Positions 2,401 through 10,020 of a stretch of DNA of 24,318 bases are shown in pieces. The notes under the pieces were generated by a model, which made no database searches, had not been told where the DNA came from, and was given only the letters and a program-made list of their open reading frames with translations. The translations under genes and the position numbers were made by a program. This DNA comes from a virus, in the IMG/VR virus record IMGVR_UViG_3300044766_000021, positions 1 through 24,318 of that record; one strand, 5' to 3'. The stretch's first letter is position 1, and every line of letters begins with the position of its first letter.

Positions 2401-2622
2401 ATGTGTCAGTGCGACAGGCGTGAATACGATTGTCATTGCGCGGATGCTGAGCTGAAGATTGCTCGGCTGGAGAAACAGCTCACCAACGCGGAGGAGATCA
2501 TCTGGGCACTCCGCAGCCAAGTACGTCTTCAGGAACTTAGGCTCAGGATCAAGTTTCAACCAGATGAACTTGAGGCATATCTGGAGGAGATGGTGAGACT
2601 GGAGAGGAGGTCACGGGAATGA
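2401..2622 (+). CDS. 73-residue coiled-coil protein with Cys-rich N-terminus
   Basis: ATG 2401 is chosen because AAGGAGGAGG ends at 2392. An in-frame GTG at 2359 has no such site. The protein begins MCQCDRREYDCHC, a cluster of four cysteines and a histidine that could bind metal. It continues as a charged heptad-like helix (AELKIARLEKQLTNAEEIIW...) predicted to be a coiled coil. The stop overlaps the next ATG as ATGA (2619-2622), coupling it to the large zinc-ribbon gene. No known family is recognised. Confidence 0.65.
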   Translation: MCQCDRREYDCHCADAELKIARLEKQLTNAEEIIWALRSQVRLQELRLRIKFQPDELEAYLEEMVRLERRSRE

Positions 2623-3845
2623 AGGACCGCAAAGCCGACTTAATCATTGAGAACGGCGGTGGGAACCAGAATGCAATCTATGAAATCATTCATGGGATGT
2701 TCGTAGTGGGACAAACCAAGGAGTATCCAGAGAATATATCGAAAATCATCTGGAAATCTTTGCTGGAGCTAGAGTGTGACCACTTCTACACCTCGACCAA
2801 CTCGAAGATCACACGCCCGCTCAAAAAGTTGTTGGAAACCACATTCGGCAAAGAAGTAGTAGCAGTGTATTTTGCTGAGTTCTGCAAGCGAGTGGGGAAT
2901 ATCTATGCTCAGGTGCACGCTACAACTTCACTACGAAATACCTACTTCAGCGATGCCGATGCTGGGAACTGGGGTGACGGCGGGTCGTGTTTCCTGCAGG
3001 GTGGCTGCAATCGTATTCATGGGAGATTCATCAATGCTTCACCTTGCACCGGAGTCATCACCATCAACCCGATAGACGATAGATACGCCAAAGGCAGGAT
3101 GATCGTGTGGTTCAAGGATTCGCACACGGCCCATCTTATCAACAAGTATAGCCAATCAAGGGGCCGTGAGTTGCCGCATAACGTGTTTGTGCGGGCGTTG
3201 GAAGCCTTGACAGATACACAGCTGTCATATCATCGCCCCGACCGCTACACCACTCTTCCGGTCTACATCAACAATTCTCCAGTGATTTGTACCACCACAA
3301 ACGATACGGATTTCGATCATATCATCAAGAGCTACAAATTCAAGTGTCACGAATGCAGTGAGCTTTATATTTCCGGGCCAAACGCAGAATACCTCTGCAA
3401 TGATTGCCTTGAAGAAAATGATGATCGTGCTATCTGCGATAATTGCGGCGAGCGAATAGGCCCAGACGACACTTTCGGTTTCAATGATTATGTCTACTGT
3501 GAAACTTGCTATTCGGATATTGTCTTTTACTGCGAATGCTGTTCCGAAGACTGCAGCAGAGATGATGCAGTGGCAGTCGTGGATTCTCGTGGTCGAGATG
3601 ACGGAATCGTGTGCTCTGCTTGCGCTGAGGATAATTATTACGAGTGCAACCAGTGCAACTGCTTTGCGCGTGCAAATGACACAATCTCAACAGACGACGG
3701 CACATCCTACTGCAATCACTGTGCTGCTGAACAGACGCAGACGTGTGGGAAGTGCGGGATTTGCTCTGATGACTTGGATGATTTCGATGACGATGGAAAC
3801 TGCGGCGAGTGCCACGAAGAGGAGGAGGAAGAGGAGGCATCATGA
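2619..3845 (+). CDS. Large protein with five tandem zinc ribbons and acidic tail
   Basis: 408 residues, ATG coupled to the preceding gene. The N-terminal ~235 residues form a globular domain of unrecognised family (MKDRKADLIIENGGG..., with GNWGDGGSCFLQGGC near the middle). From C243 onward there are ten CxxC pairs (CHEC, CNDC, CDNC, CETC, CECC, CSAC, CNQC, CNHC, CGKC, CGEC), enough for five Cys4 ribbons. The protein ends in an acidic tract of Glu. Tandem ribbons suggest binding of nucleic acid or of a multi-subunit host protein. Its stop overlaps the start of the metallopeptidase-like gene (ATGA at 3842-3845), so the two are probably made together. Function is unknown. Confidence 0.75.
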   Translation: MKDRKADLIIENGGGNQNAIYEIIHGMFVVGQTKEYPENISKIIWKSLLELECDHFYTSTNSKITRPLKKLLETTFGKEVVAVYFAEFCKRVGNIYAQVHATTSLRNTYFSDADAGNWGDGGSCFLQGGCNRIHGRFINASPCTGVITINPIDDRYAKGRMIVWFKDSHTAHLINKYSQSRGRELPHNVFVRALEALTDTQLSYHRPDRYTTLPVYINNSPVICTTTNDTDFDHIIKSYKFKCHECSELYISGPNAEYLCNDCLEENDDRAICDNCGERIGPDDTFGFNDYVYCETCYSDIVFYCECCSEDCSRDDAVAVVDSRGRDDGIVCSACAEDNYYECNQCNCFARANDTISTDDGTSYCNHCAAEQTQTCGKCGICSDDLDDFDDDGNCGECHEEEEEEEAS

Positions 3846-4837
3846 AGAAACACAAGCTGAATCTCATTCAGATCCATAAAGCTTCAACCAAGGTATTGCT
3901 CAATCACTTCGCCACTCTGCACCCTAAAGCGATCAAAGGCGAAGATTTCGTATATGTGCCGGGATCGACGCGGATGCCTCTGCTTGTGGCACATGCCGAT
4001 ATTATCCACCCAGATATTCCTCAGCTGATTCTTATCGACGAGATCAAAGGCATCCTGAGCTCACCCACCGGTCTTGGTGCTGATGATCGTGCAGGAGTCT
4101 ACGCGATCCTGACCCTCTGGGAAAACCTCGATCCAAAACCGGGGATGCTCTTGTGCGACAAAGAGGAGACCGGGGGAATCGGCGCGTGGAACGCCTCCTA
4201 CGACATCTACGATCAACTGCAGGAGTATCCCTTCTATGTCGAGATCGACCGCAAAGGTAGCGGTGAGTGTGTCTTCTACAACTATGAGCACCAAGAGTTC
4301 ATCGACTACATCGAATCCTTCGGGTTCAAGGAGGAGTACGGAATCTTCTCAGACATCACCACGCTGGGCACAGAGACCAAGAAGTGTTCGGTCAATCTGT
4401 CGGCGGGCTATGAGTTGGCCCACACCAAGGGTGAGTACCTCAAGTTGGATGCTCTGAACTACACAATCAAGCACGGGCGGAAACTCATGCTCAGCATGCT
4501 CCACAACCCGCCCAAGGATTTGCGCTTCAGGCTCCCGAAACCGCCGAAGAAAGAAAAGCTGTACGGATATTCCTCATTCAATCATGGCTATGACAGCTAC
4601 AACGGCTACAGCGAAAACGGAAGGTTCATGGATGATGATCTTCCTGATGTGGATGCATATATGAAACACCCGGAGAAATATGACTGGCACGGGCGCAGCG
4701 GTAGATACAAATGTTGCGATCAGTGCGGGAGTGACGCTGAAGTTAAGTACGCCAATCTGAACTATGGTCACCTGTGCATCGAGTGCTACCGGGATTGGAT
4801 GGACTTTGAAGACGATCTGGCGAGCGGCAAACAATAA
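3842..4837 (+). CDS. M28/M20/M42-like metallopeptidase with C-terminal zinc ribbon
   Basis: 331 residues from ATG 3842, coupled to the gene before it. An upstream in-frame extension would lie inside the Glu-coding tract and is unlikely. The motifs match the di-zinc exopeptidase fold (M20, M28 and M42 clans): H51-A-D53 (HxD), GLGADD with D81, the catalytic pair E108-E109 in DKEETGGIGA, D136 in EIDRKG, and H194 in GYELAHTKGEYL. All five expected metal ligands or catalytic positions are present, so it is probably active as an aminopeptidase, carboxypeptidase or deacylase. Residues 292-315 add a Cys4 ribbon (CDQC...CIEC), not usual for these families. Substrate unknown. A host or capsid-unrelated regulatory target is a guess. 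Confidence 0.8.
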   Translation: MKKHKLNLIQIHKASTKVLLNHFATLHPKAIKGEDFVYVPGSTRMPLLVAHADIIHPDIPQLILIDEIKGILSSPTGLGADDRAGVYAILTLWENLDPKPGMLLCDKEETGGIGAWNASYDIYDQLQEYPFYVEIDRKGSGECVFYNYEHQEFIDYIESFGFKEEYGIFSDITTLGTETKKCSVNLSAGYELAHTKGEYLKLDALNYTIKHGRKLMLSMLHNPPKDLRFRLPKPPKKEKLYGYSSFNHGYDSYNGYSENGRFMDDDLPDVDAYMKHPEKYDWHGRSGRYKCCDQCGSDAEVKYANLNYGHLCIECYRDWMDFEDDLASGKQ

Positions 4838-4867: not shown

Positions 4868-5191
4868 ATGCGAGTGCACTACGTTTTGAACCACGGCAGC
4901 ACACCAGCGTCAAAGCTGGCTGATGTCGAGATCTTCTTCGAGGATGGGCTGCTGGCTGGCATGAAGTTGGTCGGATGCAGTGTCTGGAAGGCCAAGAAGG
5001 GAGACCAGCCAACGGTTCTGGTGCCCTCTCGTTCCTACGCTACCGTTGGAGGAGTCCGCTACTATGAACTCCTGCGGGCTGCGGCTCCCGATGCGGATGC
5101 ACAGAAGACAACCGTGCGGACCTTCAAAGACTACATCAGGGAGGAGTACCTGAAAATCGCTGAGCTCCCCGATGGGCAAGCGGCGCACTAA
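4868..5191 (+). CDS. 107-residue protein, possibly SpoVG-like
   Basis: ATG 4868 follows CAAGGAGGG. The sequence starts MRVHYVLNHGST and contains GLLAGMKLVGCSVWKAKKG followed by a VPSRSY motif and GGVRYYELLR. That order (hydrophobic strand, small loop, PSR, glycine turn, aromatic strand) recalls the SpoVG fold of small nucleic-acid-binding proteins. The similarity is by eye and weak. The C-terminal 30 residues (TFKDYIREEYLKIAELPDG) are helical. Its stop shares a base with the next ATG (TAATG). Alternative: an unrelated phage early protein. Confidence 0.6.
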   Translation: MRVHYVLNHGSTPASKLADVEIFFEDGLLAGMKLVGCSVWKAKKGDQPTVLVPSRSYATVGGVRYYELLRAAAPDADAQKTTVRTFKDYIREEYLKIAELPDGQAAH

Positions 5192-5553: not shown

Positions 5554-5781
5554 GTGGTCAGTTGCATAACAGACAATGGGACCAGAATCACGATTTGCAA
5601 GGGCGCGTGGTTTTCAGTGGAACATTCCGATCACGTTGGTGACAAGTTCTATGACTACTCCGAATTGTCATCTGACCAGAAAGGAGAAATTGATTCATGG
5701 ATCGCAAAGTTCATAGGTTGCGCCGAATCGTGTCCGTTGTTAGGGAACTCATTGATCCCGAGCTTCCACTGCAGCAGTTAG
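5554..5781 (+). CDS. Small unidentified protein upstream of the regulator
   Basis: 75 residues from GTG 5554, a few bases after AAAGGGGGTGG. It begins MVSCITDNGTRITICKGAWF and has four cysteines but no clear CxxC ribbon. Its last 85 bases overlap the MarR-like gene in another frame, an unusually long overlap for this genome. Either the C-terminal part is tolerated out-of-frame coding or the true product is shorter. No homology is recognised. Confidence 0.5.
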   Translation: MVSCITDNGTRITICKGAWFSVEHSDHVGDKFYDYSELSSDQKGEIDSWIAKFIGCAESCPLLGNSLIPSFHCSS

Positions 5782-6047
5782 CTCTGTTGCTGCTGATCGC
5801 GGAGGCCGGAGACGAAGGGATTACCATGCCCGAGGCCTGCACGAAACTGGGAATGGGGCAGACTTCTGTGTCAAAGAATGCGAAGATGCTGAGCCGGTAC
5901 GCGGAGGACCGAGGAGGGAACATTGTCATCAAGGGGTATGAACTGATCGACGCTCGCCCGGACCTGATGGAACGCAGAAGGCTGCGGATGACCATCACTC
6001 CGAAGGGAGACAAAGTGATTGCGGAGATTGCGAAGGAGGTCGCCTGA
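5697..6047 (+). CDS. MarR-like winged-helix regulator
   Basis: 116 residues from ATG 5697, with AAGGAG at 5680-5685. The order fits a MarR-type winged helix: a hydrophobic helix (LPLQQLALLLLIAEAG), the turn EGITMPEACTKLGMGQTSVSKN with a recognition helix typical of SVSKNAKML, then a wing and RLRMTITPKGDKVIAEIAKE, which matches the MarR signature of beta wing followed by TxKG and a C-terminal helix. It lies directly upstream of the integrase, with TGATG overlap, and is probably a DNA-binding regulator of the lysogeny or polymerase promoters. The inverted repeat at 7514-7538 is a candidate operator (inference). Confidence 0.8.
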   Translation: MDRKVHRLRRIVSVVRELIDPELPLQQLALLLLIAEAGDEGITMPEACTKLGMGQTSVSKNAKMLSRYAEDRGGNIVIKGYELIDARPDLMERRRLRMTITPKGDKVIAEIAKEVA

Positions 6048-7018
6048 TGGCGGTCTACAAGCGAGGAGTGATCTGGTACTATGATATACAGGTCGCTGGA
6101 AGGCGGATTAAGCGGGCTACAGGGGCGGCGGACAAGCGCGCTGCTCAAGTCGAAGCTGAACTGGCAAAGCGCAAAGCCGCTGCCCCGCCCGCAGATGGAG
6201 CTGGACTCCTCCTGCAGGATGCAATCATGCGGTGCTACAAAGAGGAGTGGAAGGACAAGAAGTCAGGATTGAAGATGGTCAATCGTGTCTTGAAAGTTGT
6301 AGATATCTTGGGTGACATCCCGATTCAGCGGGTGAACGAGGAGGCCATCGCCAAAATGGTCGCGGAGCTGGAGAAACGCAAGCTCGCACCGGCCTCCATC
6401 AACCGCTACCGTGCTTACTTGCGCCGCATCCTGAACCTTGCCAACAAGAAGTGGCAGGTGCTCGACCGTGTTCCGTACATCAGGAACACTCCTGAAGTAG
6501 CCCAGAGGTTCAAGGTGTACACACAAGAGGAGGAGCGGCGCATTCTCTCCTGCTCCAACCACGAGTTCGTTGGTCTGGCGACTATCCTATTCGACACCGG
6601 GATGCGGGTCAGCGAAGCGCTGCGGCTGGAGAAAGCTGAGGTTGACTTCGATACCAACAGCATCACCGTTTGGGGAGATGCCACGAAGAGCGGCAAATCC
6701 CGCGGTGTCCCAATGACACGCCGGGTGCGCCAGTTGCTTGAGAATCGAACGCTCCCCTTCCAATTCAAGAATCTGGATGAGGTTGAGCGTGTCTGGGAGC
6801 GGATGAGGAAGGAGCTTGGTGGTAAACCCGACTGGCTCCTCCACTCCATGCGCCACACCTTTGCATCCCGTTTGGTTCGCCGGGGGGTCGATTTGTACAC
6901 TGTGGGCTCCTTGTTGGGACACTCCACGGTCACGGTGACAGAGCGATATGCTCACCTCAACCCCGCGAAGCTGGCTCAGGCCGTGTCTCTTCTGGAAGGA
7001 GAACAATGTGCGTATTAA
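6047..7018 (+). CDS. int: Tyrosine recombinase / integrase
   Basis: 323 residues, ATG coupled to the regulator. All catalytic positions are visible: R187 in DTGMRVSEA, K214 in the ATKSG hairpin, H266-x-x-R269 in LHSMRH, H292 in LLGHS and the nucleophile Y301 in TERYAHL. The N-terminus (VYKRGVIWYYDIQVAGRRIK) is the arm-binding three-strand domain of phage integrases, followed by a SAM-like core-binding domain around residues 52-150. It would catalyse site-specific integration of the phage into the host. The candidate attachment site lies about 230 bases downstream. Integrases are uncommon in T7-like phages but known in some. Confidence 0.95.
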   Translation: MAVYKRGVIWYYDIQVAGRRIKRATGAADKRAAQVEAELAKRKAAAPPADGAGLLLQDAIMRCYKEEWKDKKSGLKMVNRVLKVVDILGDIPIQRVNEEAIAKMVAELEKRKLAPASINRYRAYLRRILNLANKKWQVLDRVPYIRNTPEVAQRFKVYTQEEERRILSCSNHEFVGLATILFDTGMRVSEALRLEKAEVDFDTNSITVWGDATKSGKSRGVPMTRRVRQLLENRTLPFQFKNLDEVERVWERMRKELGGKPDWLLHSMRHTFASRLVRRGVDLYTVGSLLGHSTVTVTERYAHLNPAKLAQAVSLLEGEQCAY

Positions 7019-7175
7019 AATTAGGCGTAACGACGGCAAAGCGTTCACAGCTGCCCAAATTAAATGGGCAGAAGCTTACAGCGCTGGATATGTTGTGGGC
7101 TATCAAAACGCGAGTCGCAAAAAAGATGCTGAGATATACCTCCTACGGGAATTAATAGTGAAAATACTGGTGTGA
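7008..7175 (+). CDS. 55-residue basic protein after integrase
   Basis: GTG 7008 sits 6 bases after AAGGAG and overlaps the last 11 bases of the integrase. The product begins MRIKIRRNDGKAFTAAQIKW and is rich in Lys and Arg with two likely helices. Its position beside int would suit an excisionase, but no excisionase motif is recognisable. A perfect inverted repeat, CTGCCC and GGGCAG separated by 9 bases (7051-7071), lies inside the coding region. The stop at 7173-7175 falls within a pair of direct repeats. Confidence 0.6.
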   Translation: MRIKIRRNDGKAFTAAQIKWAEAYSAGYVVGYQNASRKKDAEIYLLRELIVKILV

Positions 7176-7187
7176 AATCTGGTGTGA
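7167..7187 (+). repeat. Tandem CTGGTGTGA direct repeat
   Basis: CTGGTGTGA occurs at 7167-7175 and again at 7179-7187, a 12-base period (slightly more than one helix turn). Two nearby sites facing the same side of the helix are typical of integrase arm sites. Here they lie between int and the tRNA-Cys piece. Confidence 0.5.
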
Positions 7188-7230
7188 TTCTGCTGCACAG
7201 TTGGACCAGTAATGAGCCTAATTCACCTGT

Positions 7231-7249
7231 AAACACTTGATATTGCTGG
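7231..7249 (+). repeat. Direct repeat flanking the tRNA-Cys piece, left copy
   Basis: AAACACTTGATATTGCTGG matches the copy at 7313-7332 (AAACACTTAACTATCGTTGG), with one gap and four substitutions. The pair brackets the 39-base tRNA-Cys fragment and is a candidate set of integrase or accessory-factor binding sites. Confidence 0.6.
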
Positions 7250-7252
7250 CAC

Positions 7253-7291
7253 GGCGGCATAGCCAAGCGGTAAGGCAGAGGACTGCAAATC
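7253..7291 (+). pseudogene. 5' half of a tRNA-Cys gene; candidate attP core
   Basis: The sequence starts GGCGGCATAGCCAAGCGGT and continues through an intact D-arm and anticodon loop. The loop CTGCAAA contains the GCA anticodon of cysteine. Similarity stops two bases into the 3' side of the anticodon stem. No 3' half follows, so it cannot be an RNA gene by itself. A partial tRNA beside an integrase is the classic appearance of an attachment site. Integration within the anticodon region of a host tRNA-Cys would leave this phage-borne half joined to the host 3' half. The alternative is a decayed phage tRNA next to the intact tRNA-Met. Confidence 0.65.
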
Positions 7292-7312
7292 GGCAATGCT
7301 CCCTGTCTTTCC

Positions 7313-7332
7313 AAACACTTAACTATCGTTGG
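7313..7332 (+). repeat. Direct repeat flanking the tRNA-Cys piece, right copy
   Basis: Right partner of the repeat at 7231-7249, in the same orientation and 82 bases downstream. The spacing and symmetry around the tRNA fragment suggest a designed attP region. Confidence 0.6.
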
Positions 7333-7394
7333 TGTAGAATTGGGACATAAAACACCCTGATTTAGCACCCATTATTAGCGGTGGAAGCCGGAAT

Positions 7395-7470
7395 AGCGGG
7401 ATCGCCAAGTGGCAAGGCACGAGCCTCATAAGCTCGTAATGCGCAGGTTCGAATCCTGCTCCCGCTACCA
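7395..7470 (+). tRNA. tRNA-Met (CAT anticodon)
   Basis: A complete cloverleaf: acceptor AGCGGGA (7395-7401) pairs with TCCCGCT (7460-7466), the anticodon stem CGAGC/GCTCG encloses the loop CTCATAA (anticodon CAT), and the T-stem GCAGG/CCTGC encloses TTCGAAT. The 3' CCA is encoded (7468-7470). Position 1 pairs with 72, so it is not an initiator tRNA. A CAT anticodon could also be tRNA-Ile with a lysidine at position 34, and base sequence alone does not settle this. It lies between the att region and the polymerase promoter. Confidence 0.95.
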
Positions 7471-7584: not shown

Positions 7585-10020
7585 ATGACGGCTGAGAAGA
7601 TCCTCCTCGAAGCTGGCGCTTCTGCGGGCGACATCAAGCGACAGCTGCAGTTGGAACACGAAAGCGTGGAGCTTGGGATCAAGAAGTATCGTGACAATGT
7701 GGTAAAGCGATCCCTCACTGATCTTCCTCCCGGTCAAAGGCTCCTGAAGATGGCAATAGAGCCATTCATGGTTACCATGAAAAACTGGTTGGAGACTCCC
7801 CTGTCTGGCCGGTGCTTTGTCTACAAGAATTTCTTCAGACAGTTCCGACTGGAGATCATCGCATTCTTGACCGTAAAGAGAATTGTCAACAATCTTGGAA
7901 CTGGTGGACGAGGGTTCTCTTTTCAAAGCACGGCAATCAGCATCGCTGATATGCTTATTGACCATCTTGAATATCTAGCTTTCAAGAAAGAAGCTCCCGG
8001 CTACGTCTACACCATCGAGAAAGACAACAAGTGGGCCTCTGAGTCTCACAGGAGAGCAACCCTTCTAAGAGCTAAGACTAAACTCTTGGGTAGGGCTGAG
8101 TTTACTTCTGTGCAGAAAGTTCAGATTGGATCTAGGTGTATTGAGACGTTGATTGAGGCCACAGGTTTAGTCGAGAAAATTTTAACGAAGAATCCTAAGA
8201 CAAGAAAATCTAATTATCAGCTGTGTGCTACTCAAGTTTTGCAGGAGTGGCTGGAAAAAGCTCACAACCAGTGTGAACTCCTGCAACCTATGAATTTCCC
8301 GATGGTCGTGTTTCCTGTGGACTGGAACGATCCTGTGTCTGGTGGATTCCTCACCAACCAGAACACGCACCAGATCCAGCTGATGAAGACACGAGACATC
8401 GAGGAACTTATGGCTCTGGCTGAGAAGGATCTCAGTCGTGTCTACTCCGCGGTCAACTCTGTGCAACGCACCGCGTGGAGGATCAACCAGAAAATATATC
8501 GGGCGATGGAGGAGGTCTGGGCGGTCGGTGATCGAGCTGGGCTCCCAGCGAAGGAACTACCTGAGCTCCCACGCAAAACTTGGGAGAAGGGCGTGGAACC
8601 ACCCAAGCGTGAGCTGCTTGCTTGGAAAAAGATTGCTACCAAGATTCATGAACAGCATGCACGGGAGAGGAGCAAGCGGGTTGCCATTCAGATCAAACTC
8701 TACATCGCAGGAAAGATGTTGCATGAATCCAAACTGTACTTTGTATGGACGTTGGACTGGCGGGGTCGTATGTATCCAGTGCAGCAATTCGTTAACCCAC
8801 AGGCAGACGATTCTGGCAGGGCACTCCTTGAGTTCTCGATGGGTAAACCCCTCGGGGCGGATGGAGCATTCTGGCTCGCGGTACACGGAGCCAACACCTT
8901 CGGCTACGACAAGGCGAGTTTCGAAGAAAGGGTTGCGTGGGTCGTAGAGAACGAACCCGCGATCCTCGGTTCAGCGGATGACCCAATGAGCATGATCGCT
9001 TGGTGGGAACAAGCAGACGATCCCTTCCAATTCCTCGCTTTCTGCATGGAGTGGCGGGGGTACCGCGAGGAGGGCGAGTCGTATGTTTCGCATTTACCTG
9101 TATCACTGGATGGAAGCTGCAATGGCCTCCAAAACTTTTCAGCGATGCTTCGGGATGAAGTTGGCGGTAAAGCTACAAATCTGGTGCCTCTTCAAGCTCC
9201 TAGTGATATCTACCAAGAAGTCGCGGATGTCCTCAGCGCAAAGGTCAGACGTGACGCTCCGACTGAACCGCTGGCTGCCCCGTGGTTAGGAAGAATAACC
9301 CGCAAGATGACAAAGCGCGGCGTCATGACTACACCCTACGGCGTGACGCGCTACGGTCTCCGAAAACAACTTCAGTTCGAGGTGGAGAAGATCGACAGGC
9401 ATTTCCTAGGGGAACTCACGGAACCGGGAAAGTATTATGCCTACCTAAGCAACCACCTGTTCGATGCTATTGGGGAAGTTGTTGTGGCTGCACGGACAGC
9501 GATGGCGTGGCTACAGGAAGTCGCAGTTATTGCAGCGAAGAGTGACAAGGTGATCCGGTGGACCTCACCTGTGGGGTTTCCTCCGTGCCAAGACTACAGA
9601 CGGCAGAAGATGATCCGTGTGGATACCCTGTATGGCGGGATCAGAGTGCGGTATGGGCTCTGGCAGGACACGGTGCACATCGACAAACGCAAGATGTCCA
9701 GTGGGATCTCGCCTAACTTCGTTCACTCACTCGACGCCTCGCACCTGATGCTCACAGTAAATCGGTGCCAAGATTTTGGTATACAAAATTTCAGCTGTGT
9801 TCATGACAGCTTCGGTACTCTGGCCGCGGATGCGGGGAGACTCGCCTATTACCTGCGGGAATCATTCATTGAACAGTACAACGAGGATGTGCTTCAGAAG
9901 TTCCGAGATGAGGTCGTGGCTCAGCTCCCAGCTGAGTTGATCGACCAGATCCCACCGCTACCACCGAAAGGAGGGCTTGATCTGCAGAAGATCAGAGAGT
10001 CGCGCTATTTCTTTGCGTGA
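7585..10020 (+). CDS. T7-type single-subunit RNA polymerase
   Basis: 811 residues (T7 gp1 has 883). ATG 7585 follows GAAAGGAG. Catalytic landmarks are clear: DWRGRMYP at 391-398, D509 in SLDGSCNGLQ (T7 D537), K577 and Y585 in the KRGVMTTPYG O-helix (T7 K631 and Y639), and H740-D741 in CVHDSFGT (T7 D812). The C-terminus RYFFA corresponds to the essential FAFA foot. It would transcribe the middle and late phage genes from phage-specific promoters, which I could not identify by eye in this window. It is placed behind an operator-like palindrome, which would let a regulator hold the lytic programme off. Codons 7-15 include the repeat shared with 1405-1427. Confidence 0.98.
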   Translation: MTAEKILLEAGASAGDIKRQLQLEHESVELGIKKYRDNVVKRSLTDLPPGQRLLKMAIEPFMVTMKNWLETPLSGRCFVYKNFFRQFRLEIIAFLTVKRIVNNLGTGGRGFSFQSTAISIADMLIDHLEYLAFKKEAPGYVYTIEKDNKWASESHRRATLLRAKTKLLGRAEFTSVQKVQIGSRCIETLIEATGLVEKILTKNPKTRKSNYQLCATQVLQEWLEKAHNQCELLQPMNFPMVVFPVDWNDPVSGGFLTNQNTHQIQLMKTRDIEELMALAEKDLSRVYSAVNSVQRTAWRINQKIYRAMEEVWAVGDRAGLPAKELPELPRKTWEKGVEPPKRELLAWKKIATKIHEQHARERSKRVAIQIKLYIAGKMLHESKLYFVWTLDWRGRMYPVQQFVNPQADDSGRALLEFSMGKPLGADGAFWLAVHGANTFGYDKASFEERVAWVVENEPAILGSADDPMSMIAWWEQADDPFQFLAFCMEWRGYREEGESYVSHLPVSLDGSCNGLQNFSAMLRDEVGGKATNLVPLQAPSDIYQEVADVLSAKVRRDAPTEPLAAPWLGRITRKMTKRGVMTTPYGVTRYGLRKQLQFEVEKIDRHFLGELTEPGKYYAYLSNHLFDAIGEVVVAARTAMAWLQEVAVIAAKSDKVIRWTSPVGFPPCQDYRRQKMIRVDTLYGGIRVRYGLWQDTVHIDKRKMSSGISPNFVHSLDASHLMLTVNRCQDFGIQNFSCVHDSFGTLAADAGRLAYYLRESFIEQYNEDVLQKFRDEVVAQLPAELIDQIPPLPPKGGLDLQKIRESRYFFA
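7604..7627 (+). repeat. Coding copy of the 1405-1427 repeat
   Basis: These 24 bases encode LLEAGASAG near the start of the RNA polymerase and match the noncoding 1405-1427 with one extra G here. The core GAAGC and GCTTC can form a short hairpin about 25 bases into the coding region. Confidence 0.6.

Follow-up and report, generated by a model that had tools for sequence, protein, structure and literature searches.

What does a T7-like phage do with two overlapping genes, one for a multi-zinc-ribbon protein and the other for a metallopeptidase-like enzyme? These genes lie in a 24,318-nucleotide stretch of viral DNA (IMG/VR record IMGVR_UViG_3300044766_000021; hereafter the window). The window is part of a T7-like phage genome and also encodes a phage RNA polymerase (7585-10020), an integrase (6047-7018) and a tRNA-Met. 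A preliminary description made from the letters alone had claimed that the ribbon protein (gene A) and the enzyme (gene B) are functionally coupled. In the window, as in two related loci (L015 and L016), the pair precedes the gene for the phage RNA polymerase, and this location, together with the T7-like layout, would fit early expression of A and B. The features of the locus are collected in Table 1.

Table 1. Features of the A/B locus in the window.
Feature	Position	Strand	Description	Basis
Upstream ORF, 87 aa	2359..2622	+	4-nt overlap with the start of A	sequence
Gene A	2619..3845	+	408-aa partner protein: likely remote SC-domain family member with zinc-ribbon array	ORF; relatives L015, L016
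N-terminal domain of A	2619..3338	+	residues 1-240, likely remote SC-domain homologue	profile-profile comparison, predicted secondary structure
Zinc-ribbon array of A	3345..3809	+	residues 243 to about 397, ten CxxC pairs	sequence
Gene B	3842..4837	+	331-aa predicted metallo-exopeptidase, ATGA overlap with A	PHROGs and PDB profile matches
Catalytic core of B	3842..4516	+	residues 1-225	metal-ligand positions invariant, 91/91
C-terminal Cys4 ribbon of B	4715..4786	+	residues 292-315 (C292/C295...C312/C315)	sequence

We took the conserved ATG at 3842 as the start of B, since it fits both the ligand numbering of the preliminary description and the start position in relatives; a mechanical ORF call gives a GTG at 3809. 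The stop codon of A and the start codon of B thus share the letters ATGA, and the same 4-nt overlap recurs in both intact relatives (6001/6004 in L015, 5983/5986 in L016), so that the claimed stop/start overlap holds outside the window as well. Because ~40-55% identity is kept in the closest relatives, neither A nor B is a chance ORF. The 87-aa ORF upstream of A is, from its sequence, a possible third member of the translated cluster; a Pfam and PHROGs search with it gave no convincing family match. Several other genes of the surroundings were recorded. A MarR-like regulator, the integrase gene and the tRNA-Met (5697-7470) lie just before the RNA polymerase gene, an arrangement that points to a temperate lifestyle for this T7-like phage, and L016 has a regulator and an integrase in the same order. 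The early region of the window also encodes a small Cys-rich protein (124-489; 121 aa, several CxxC) for which we found no convincing family match, and a protein of 102-128 aa is encoded 3' of the peptidase in the window (4868-5191), L015 (7325-7633) and L016 (7078-7464).

B has the H-x-D, D, E-E, D/E, H order of the di-zinc exopeptidase fold (M20/M28/M42 clan). All 91 aligned sequences keep its metal ligands and general base (H51, D53, D81, E108, E109, D136 and H194) unchanged and also share a family signature beside the ligands (D136-R137, G167, D171, N185-x-S187). We searched the PDB with a profile of ten diverse phage members of the B family. The top match was the M20B peptidase T, PepT (3gb0, 2.9e-26), and the M42 enzyme TET1 (2cf4) matched at 4.5e-19. 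M42 aminopeptidases (TET, FrvX) share the ligand order, and their match takes in the two halves of the catalytic domain, the chains aligning to the profile as about 2-67 and then from about 154. They differ from B in the dimerisation domain that separates their first and second ligands, where B has just 27 residues (D53 to D81), and B for its part carries a Tyr/Gly-rich linker and a ribbon tail. Peptidase T has a lid domain, for which B has no room, with 57 residues between D136 and H194; the M20 lid domain is ~100 residues long. With so few residues where the M42 dimerisation and M20 lid domains sit, B is a minimal catalytic core. Comparison with the M20, M28 and M42 families therefore bore out the proposed exopeptidase for the PepT and M42 structures but gave no Pfam M28 match above cut-off: B has no Pfam peptidase match, and its relatives reach 19 bits against the Peptidase_M28 cut-off of 21.3, which is still compatible with kinship of fold. 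We conclude that B, judged by its sequence, is a di-zinc exopeptidase core of M42/M20B type that has a complete catalytic site and consists of the catalytic domain alone, and that it is most likely an aminopeptidase. The Cys4 ribbon reported at its C-terminus is real, but as a general trait of the peptidase it did not stand, since one or two tail ribbons are found in 32 of 90 B homologues (about a third) and none in the other 58.

The ten CxxC pairs claimed for A are present and make up five Cys4 ribbons, from C243 to about C397; a regular-expression count gives 11 because one overlaps. Relatives with ~40% identity are found in L015 (4781-6004) and L016, and in both of them eight pairs, making up four ribbons, are invariant; the fifth ribbon is absent from L015. 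The preliminary description overlooked the N-terminal domain of A, which, by sequence comparison within the partner family, is better conserved than the ribbons. Searching with A directly (tblastn, Pfam, PHROGs and a pattern scan) found no phage relative, and its family was reached only via the alignment of B.

We scanned IMG/VR with the peptidase alignment and examined the gene neighbourhood in 80 viral loci, those of 539 relatives that resemble B most closely; the peptidase set forms 82 clusters at 70% identity and 31 at 50%. In most of these loci, a gene of a recurrent partner family lies beside the peptidase; the conserved core of this family we call the SC domain and describe by a profile of 100 members cut before the ribbons. 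This SC-core profile replaced an iterative profile built from whole partners, which was contaminated by ribbon-to-ribbon matches. An SC gene immediately adjoins the peptidase gene in 68 of the 80 loci, lying upstream in 48, downstream in 14 and on both sides in 6, and is nearby, not immediately adjacent, in four more. Among the eight loci that have none are L015 and L016, with an A-type neighbour; L014, which starts inside the peptidase at a contig end; and L090 and L093, where the adjacent gene matches the Cellulophaga-type profile discussed below. The closest of the 80 loci are T7-like phages, with L015 and L016 keeping both the A homologue and the overlap. With a stricter gene caller, 62 of 70 loci have the SC gene directly beside the peptidase in gene order, and the next most recurrent gene family near the peptidase reaches only 16 of them, which argues that the pairing is not simple synteny of related phages. 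Since the loci were picked by similarity to B, these rates hold for its subclade and not for all phage M20/M42-type enzymes. The reverse survey took the partner as its starting point and covered 72 viral and 3 genome loci; 55 of these 75 have an adjacent peptidase, and 10 more have one elsewhere in the fetched DNA. The distance matrices of the two partners correlate with r = 0.63-0.74, none of 2000 permutations being as high, and with r = 0.70 for divergent pairs only, both values without control for shared phage ancestry. Adjacency in such diverse loci, the lack of any other recurrent neighbour and co-divergence all support the functional coupling; genes that are never adjacent and ligands that are not conserved, which would have spoken against it, are the opposite of what we observed.

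Three further arrangements were seen in these surveys. A conserved protein of ~266 aa with a C-terminal Cys cluster is encoded directly upstream of the peptidase in 12 loci (L019, 3208-4008, and related ones) of the clade that has its SC partner downstream. The cultured gut bacterium Clostridium citroniae WAL-17108 (NZ_JH376420.1) carries an SC-peptidase pair with a gap of 13 nt, presumably within a prophage. Lactococcus phage P087 encodes an SC-like ribbon protein ~10 kb from its peptidase.

Many members of the SC family end in ribbon arrays, with a variable number of ribbons. The core has invariant or near-invariant positions (S, P, D, S, S-C, G, K..R and Y); overall identity is low, and the richness of the core in invariant polar residues (S, S, C, R, Y) is what one would expect of a functional site. 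SC partners match two PHROGs families that include proteins of Enterococcus phages EF1, EF5, VRE9 and H1 (phrog_18912, 35 of 52 partners; phrog_29713, 15 of 52), although A itself has no match to them by direct search. In Enterococcus phage VRE9_2, three SC proteins are clustered with the peptidase, and two phrog_18912 genes flank it. The version in Enterococcus phage EF1 is ASZ76699-ASZ76701. The SC domain found no convincing match in Pfam, NCBIfam or PADLOC, and a PADLOC scan of the 52 partners gave two marginal matches only, each in one member. The family carries no curated name, and PHROGs lists its function as unknown. We also considered gp037 of Cellulophaga phage phi38:1 as a third version of the partner. 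It lies beside a peptidase in that phage and resembles SC proteins (SCM...GRA...Y, with 17 residues from R to Y), but profile comparison to the SC core was not significant, and we therefore keep the link as a motif only. This protein has many relatives in phages of 635-735 kb: four such genomes (LR756504, LR756502, LR745206 and LR756501) each hold 7-15 Cellulophaga-type SCM matches, three of them in tandem in LR756501.

Does A belong to the SC family? With hmmsearch, A and its relatives in L015 and L016 do not match the SC profile significantly (L016, iE about 1). Profile-profile comparison of their N-terminal domains with the SC core scored 35.0 (P 7.6e-5), against a maximum of 26.9 in 200 column shuffles, 13.4 for the reversed profile and a maximum of 20.2 for 33 real control families. 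The landmarks of the domain are the K63-I64-T65-R66 helix, S123-C124, G159-R160 and Y177. In this alignment K-I-T-R faces K-x-S-R, the S-C motif faces S-C and K-G-R faces K-x-x-R; the spacing from R to Y is 16-17 residues (R160-Y177 in A, R237-Y253 in the SC family). An AlphaFold model of A, built from three sequences only and of low confidence (pLDDT 52), has helices at 65-76 and 78-96, a strand at 98-108, a helix at 112-118 and the S-C loop, followed by strands at 144-151, 159-167 and 170-178, a helix at 187-195 and a strand at 201-205. This order of elements is, at that confidence, the same as in the SC model (pLDDT 92.8) apart from one short helix, and in both models R opens the second and Y closes the third strand of a sheet segment. 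From the profile-profile score, the predicted order of secondary structure and the motif spacing, A is likely, though not proven, to be a remote SC homologue.

The best explanation of these findings, to which we assign a probability of roughly 55%, is that the two genes form a conserved phage module whose products, the partner and a minimal peptidase, act jointly on a single target. In the partner, a conserved N-terminal domain, weakly predicted to have a GNAT-like arrangement, is joined to a variable array of Cys4 ribbons. A host protein, peptide or nucleoprotein would be bound or prepared by the ribbons and SC domain and then trimmed by B; the partner would either direct the peptidase to the target or modify the same substrate. 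A and B may form a physical complex in which the partner directs the substrate, and may act early in infection.

The predicted fold of the partner raises a second reading, in which it is a GNAT-fold transferase without CoA binding (ATE1- or Fem-like, aminoacyl-tRNA-dependent) and B removes or exposes the added group, so that the pair writes and erases, or tags and trims, N-terminal residues. The AlphaFold model of the well-covered partner from locus L063 (pLDDT 92.8) has the element order b-a-a-b-b-b-a-b-a-b, which is that of GNATs, and a second look for similar PDB structures, covering the families in its structural list, gave, LIM domains aside, mostly GNATs, including yeast ATE1. The invariant S, C, R and Y of the SC core would suit such an enzyme. 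However, the Z scores of these matches are 3.3-4.2 (best GNAT, 4.2), which the tool calls a common arrangement and which is too low for membership of the GNAT acetyltransferases or ATE1, and Foldseek found no PDB match at E < 0.001. The CoA pyrophosphate loop ([QR]xxGx[GA] after strand 4) is likewise absent, occurring in 6 of 94 SC members against a 3% background, and the link to aminoacyl transfer is speculation. Hence, the model points weakly to a GNAT-like arrangement lacking the CoA loop, and we regard a transferase as unlikely. A bolder form, in which a CoA-independent GNAT-fold transferase with LIM-like ribbons and a minimal aminopeptidase rewrite protein N-termini or peptide tags during infection, seems to us rather improbable. 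The likeness to LIM domains concerns the ribbons: LIM structures are among the Foldseek and VIA matches of the L063 ribbon array, and there are sequence matches to LIM proteins; A itself scores 14.8 bits against the Pfam LIM cut-off of 22.9. Structure matches to phage 'amidoligase' proteins were set aside, the best covering 113-137 columns, probably the ribbons; Amidoligase_2 was matched in the same genome in 0 of 33 records, and control genomes were silent as well.

B could instead be a housekeeping or metabolic enzyme, for peptide recycling or amino-acid supply, with the ribbon protein separate and merely sharing its operon. Cellular M20B and M42 enzymes are often peptide-recycling aminopeptidases, and no SC gene adjoins the more distant peptidases of phages P23-45, Jenst and vB_BcoS-136, which indicates that B-type enzymes can work without the partner; pairing of the two genes is thus usual in the subclade of B and not, as had been asked, constant. 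Yet across very diverse phages no other gene context is conserved, the pairing holds from both sides, and the partners co-diverge, so that we consider a housekeeping role quite doubtful. A strict counter-defence or host-takeover function, in which directed proteolysis by the pair disables an immune or core protein of the host, would fit the position before the RNA polymerase gene in the window, L015 and L016 as well as the strong sequence divergence and variable ribbon number, both as in arms-race proteins, but it appears improbable given that PADLOC offers no defence family match and that an exopeptidase core is an odd choice for cutting folded proteins.

Among known phage families, the closest to B are phrog_34186 (1.3e-27), phrog_4191 (1.5e-18) and phrog_21791 (3.5e-10), which are labelled peptidase or unknown and share its ligand pattern; a C-terminal ribbon or SC neighbour is seen in some of their members only, and none of the three has an assigned role in infection. 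A literature search of partial coverage found no description of a peptidase/ribbon pair, and the A/B unit appears to be undescribed so far. The pair is kept across T7-like podophages, phages of 100-400 kb and Enterococcus phages. Pairing over such a range, together with the invariant ligands and a partner that has no name, is a good sign of an important, unstudied function in infection. Since the pair also occurs in cultured Enterococcus phages (EF1, EF5, VRE9 and H1) and in the genome of a cultured gut Clostridium, this function is directly testable.
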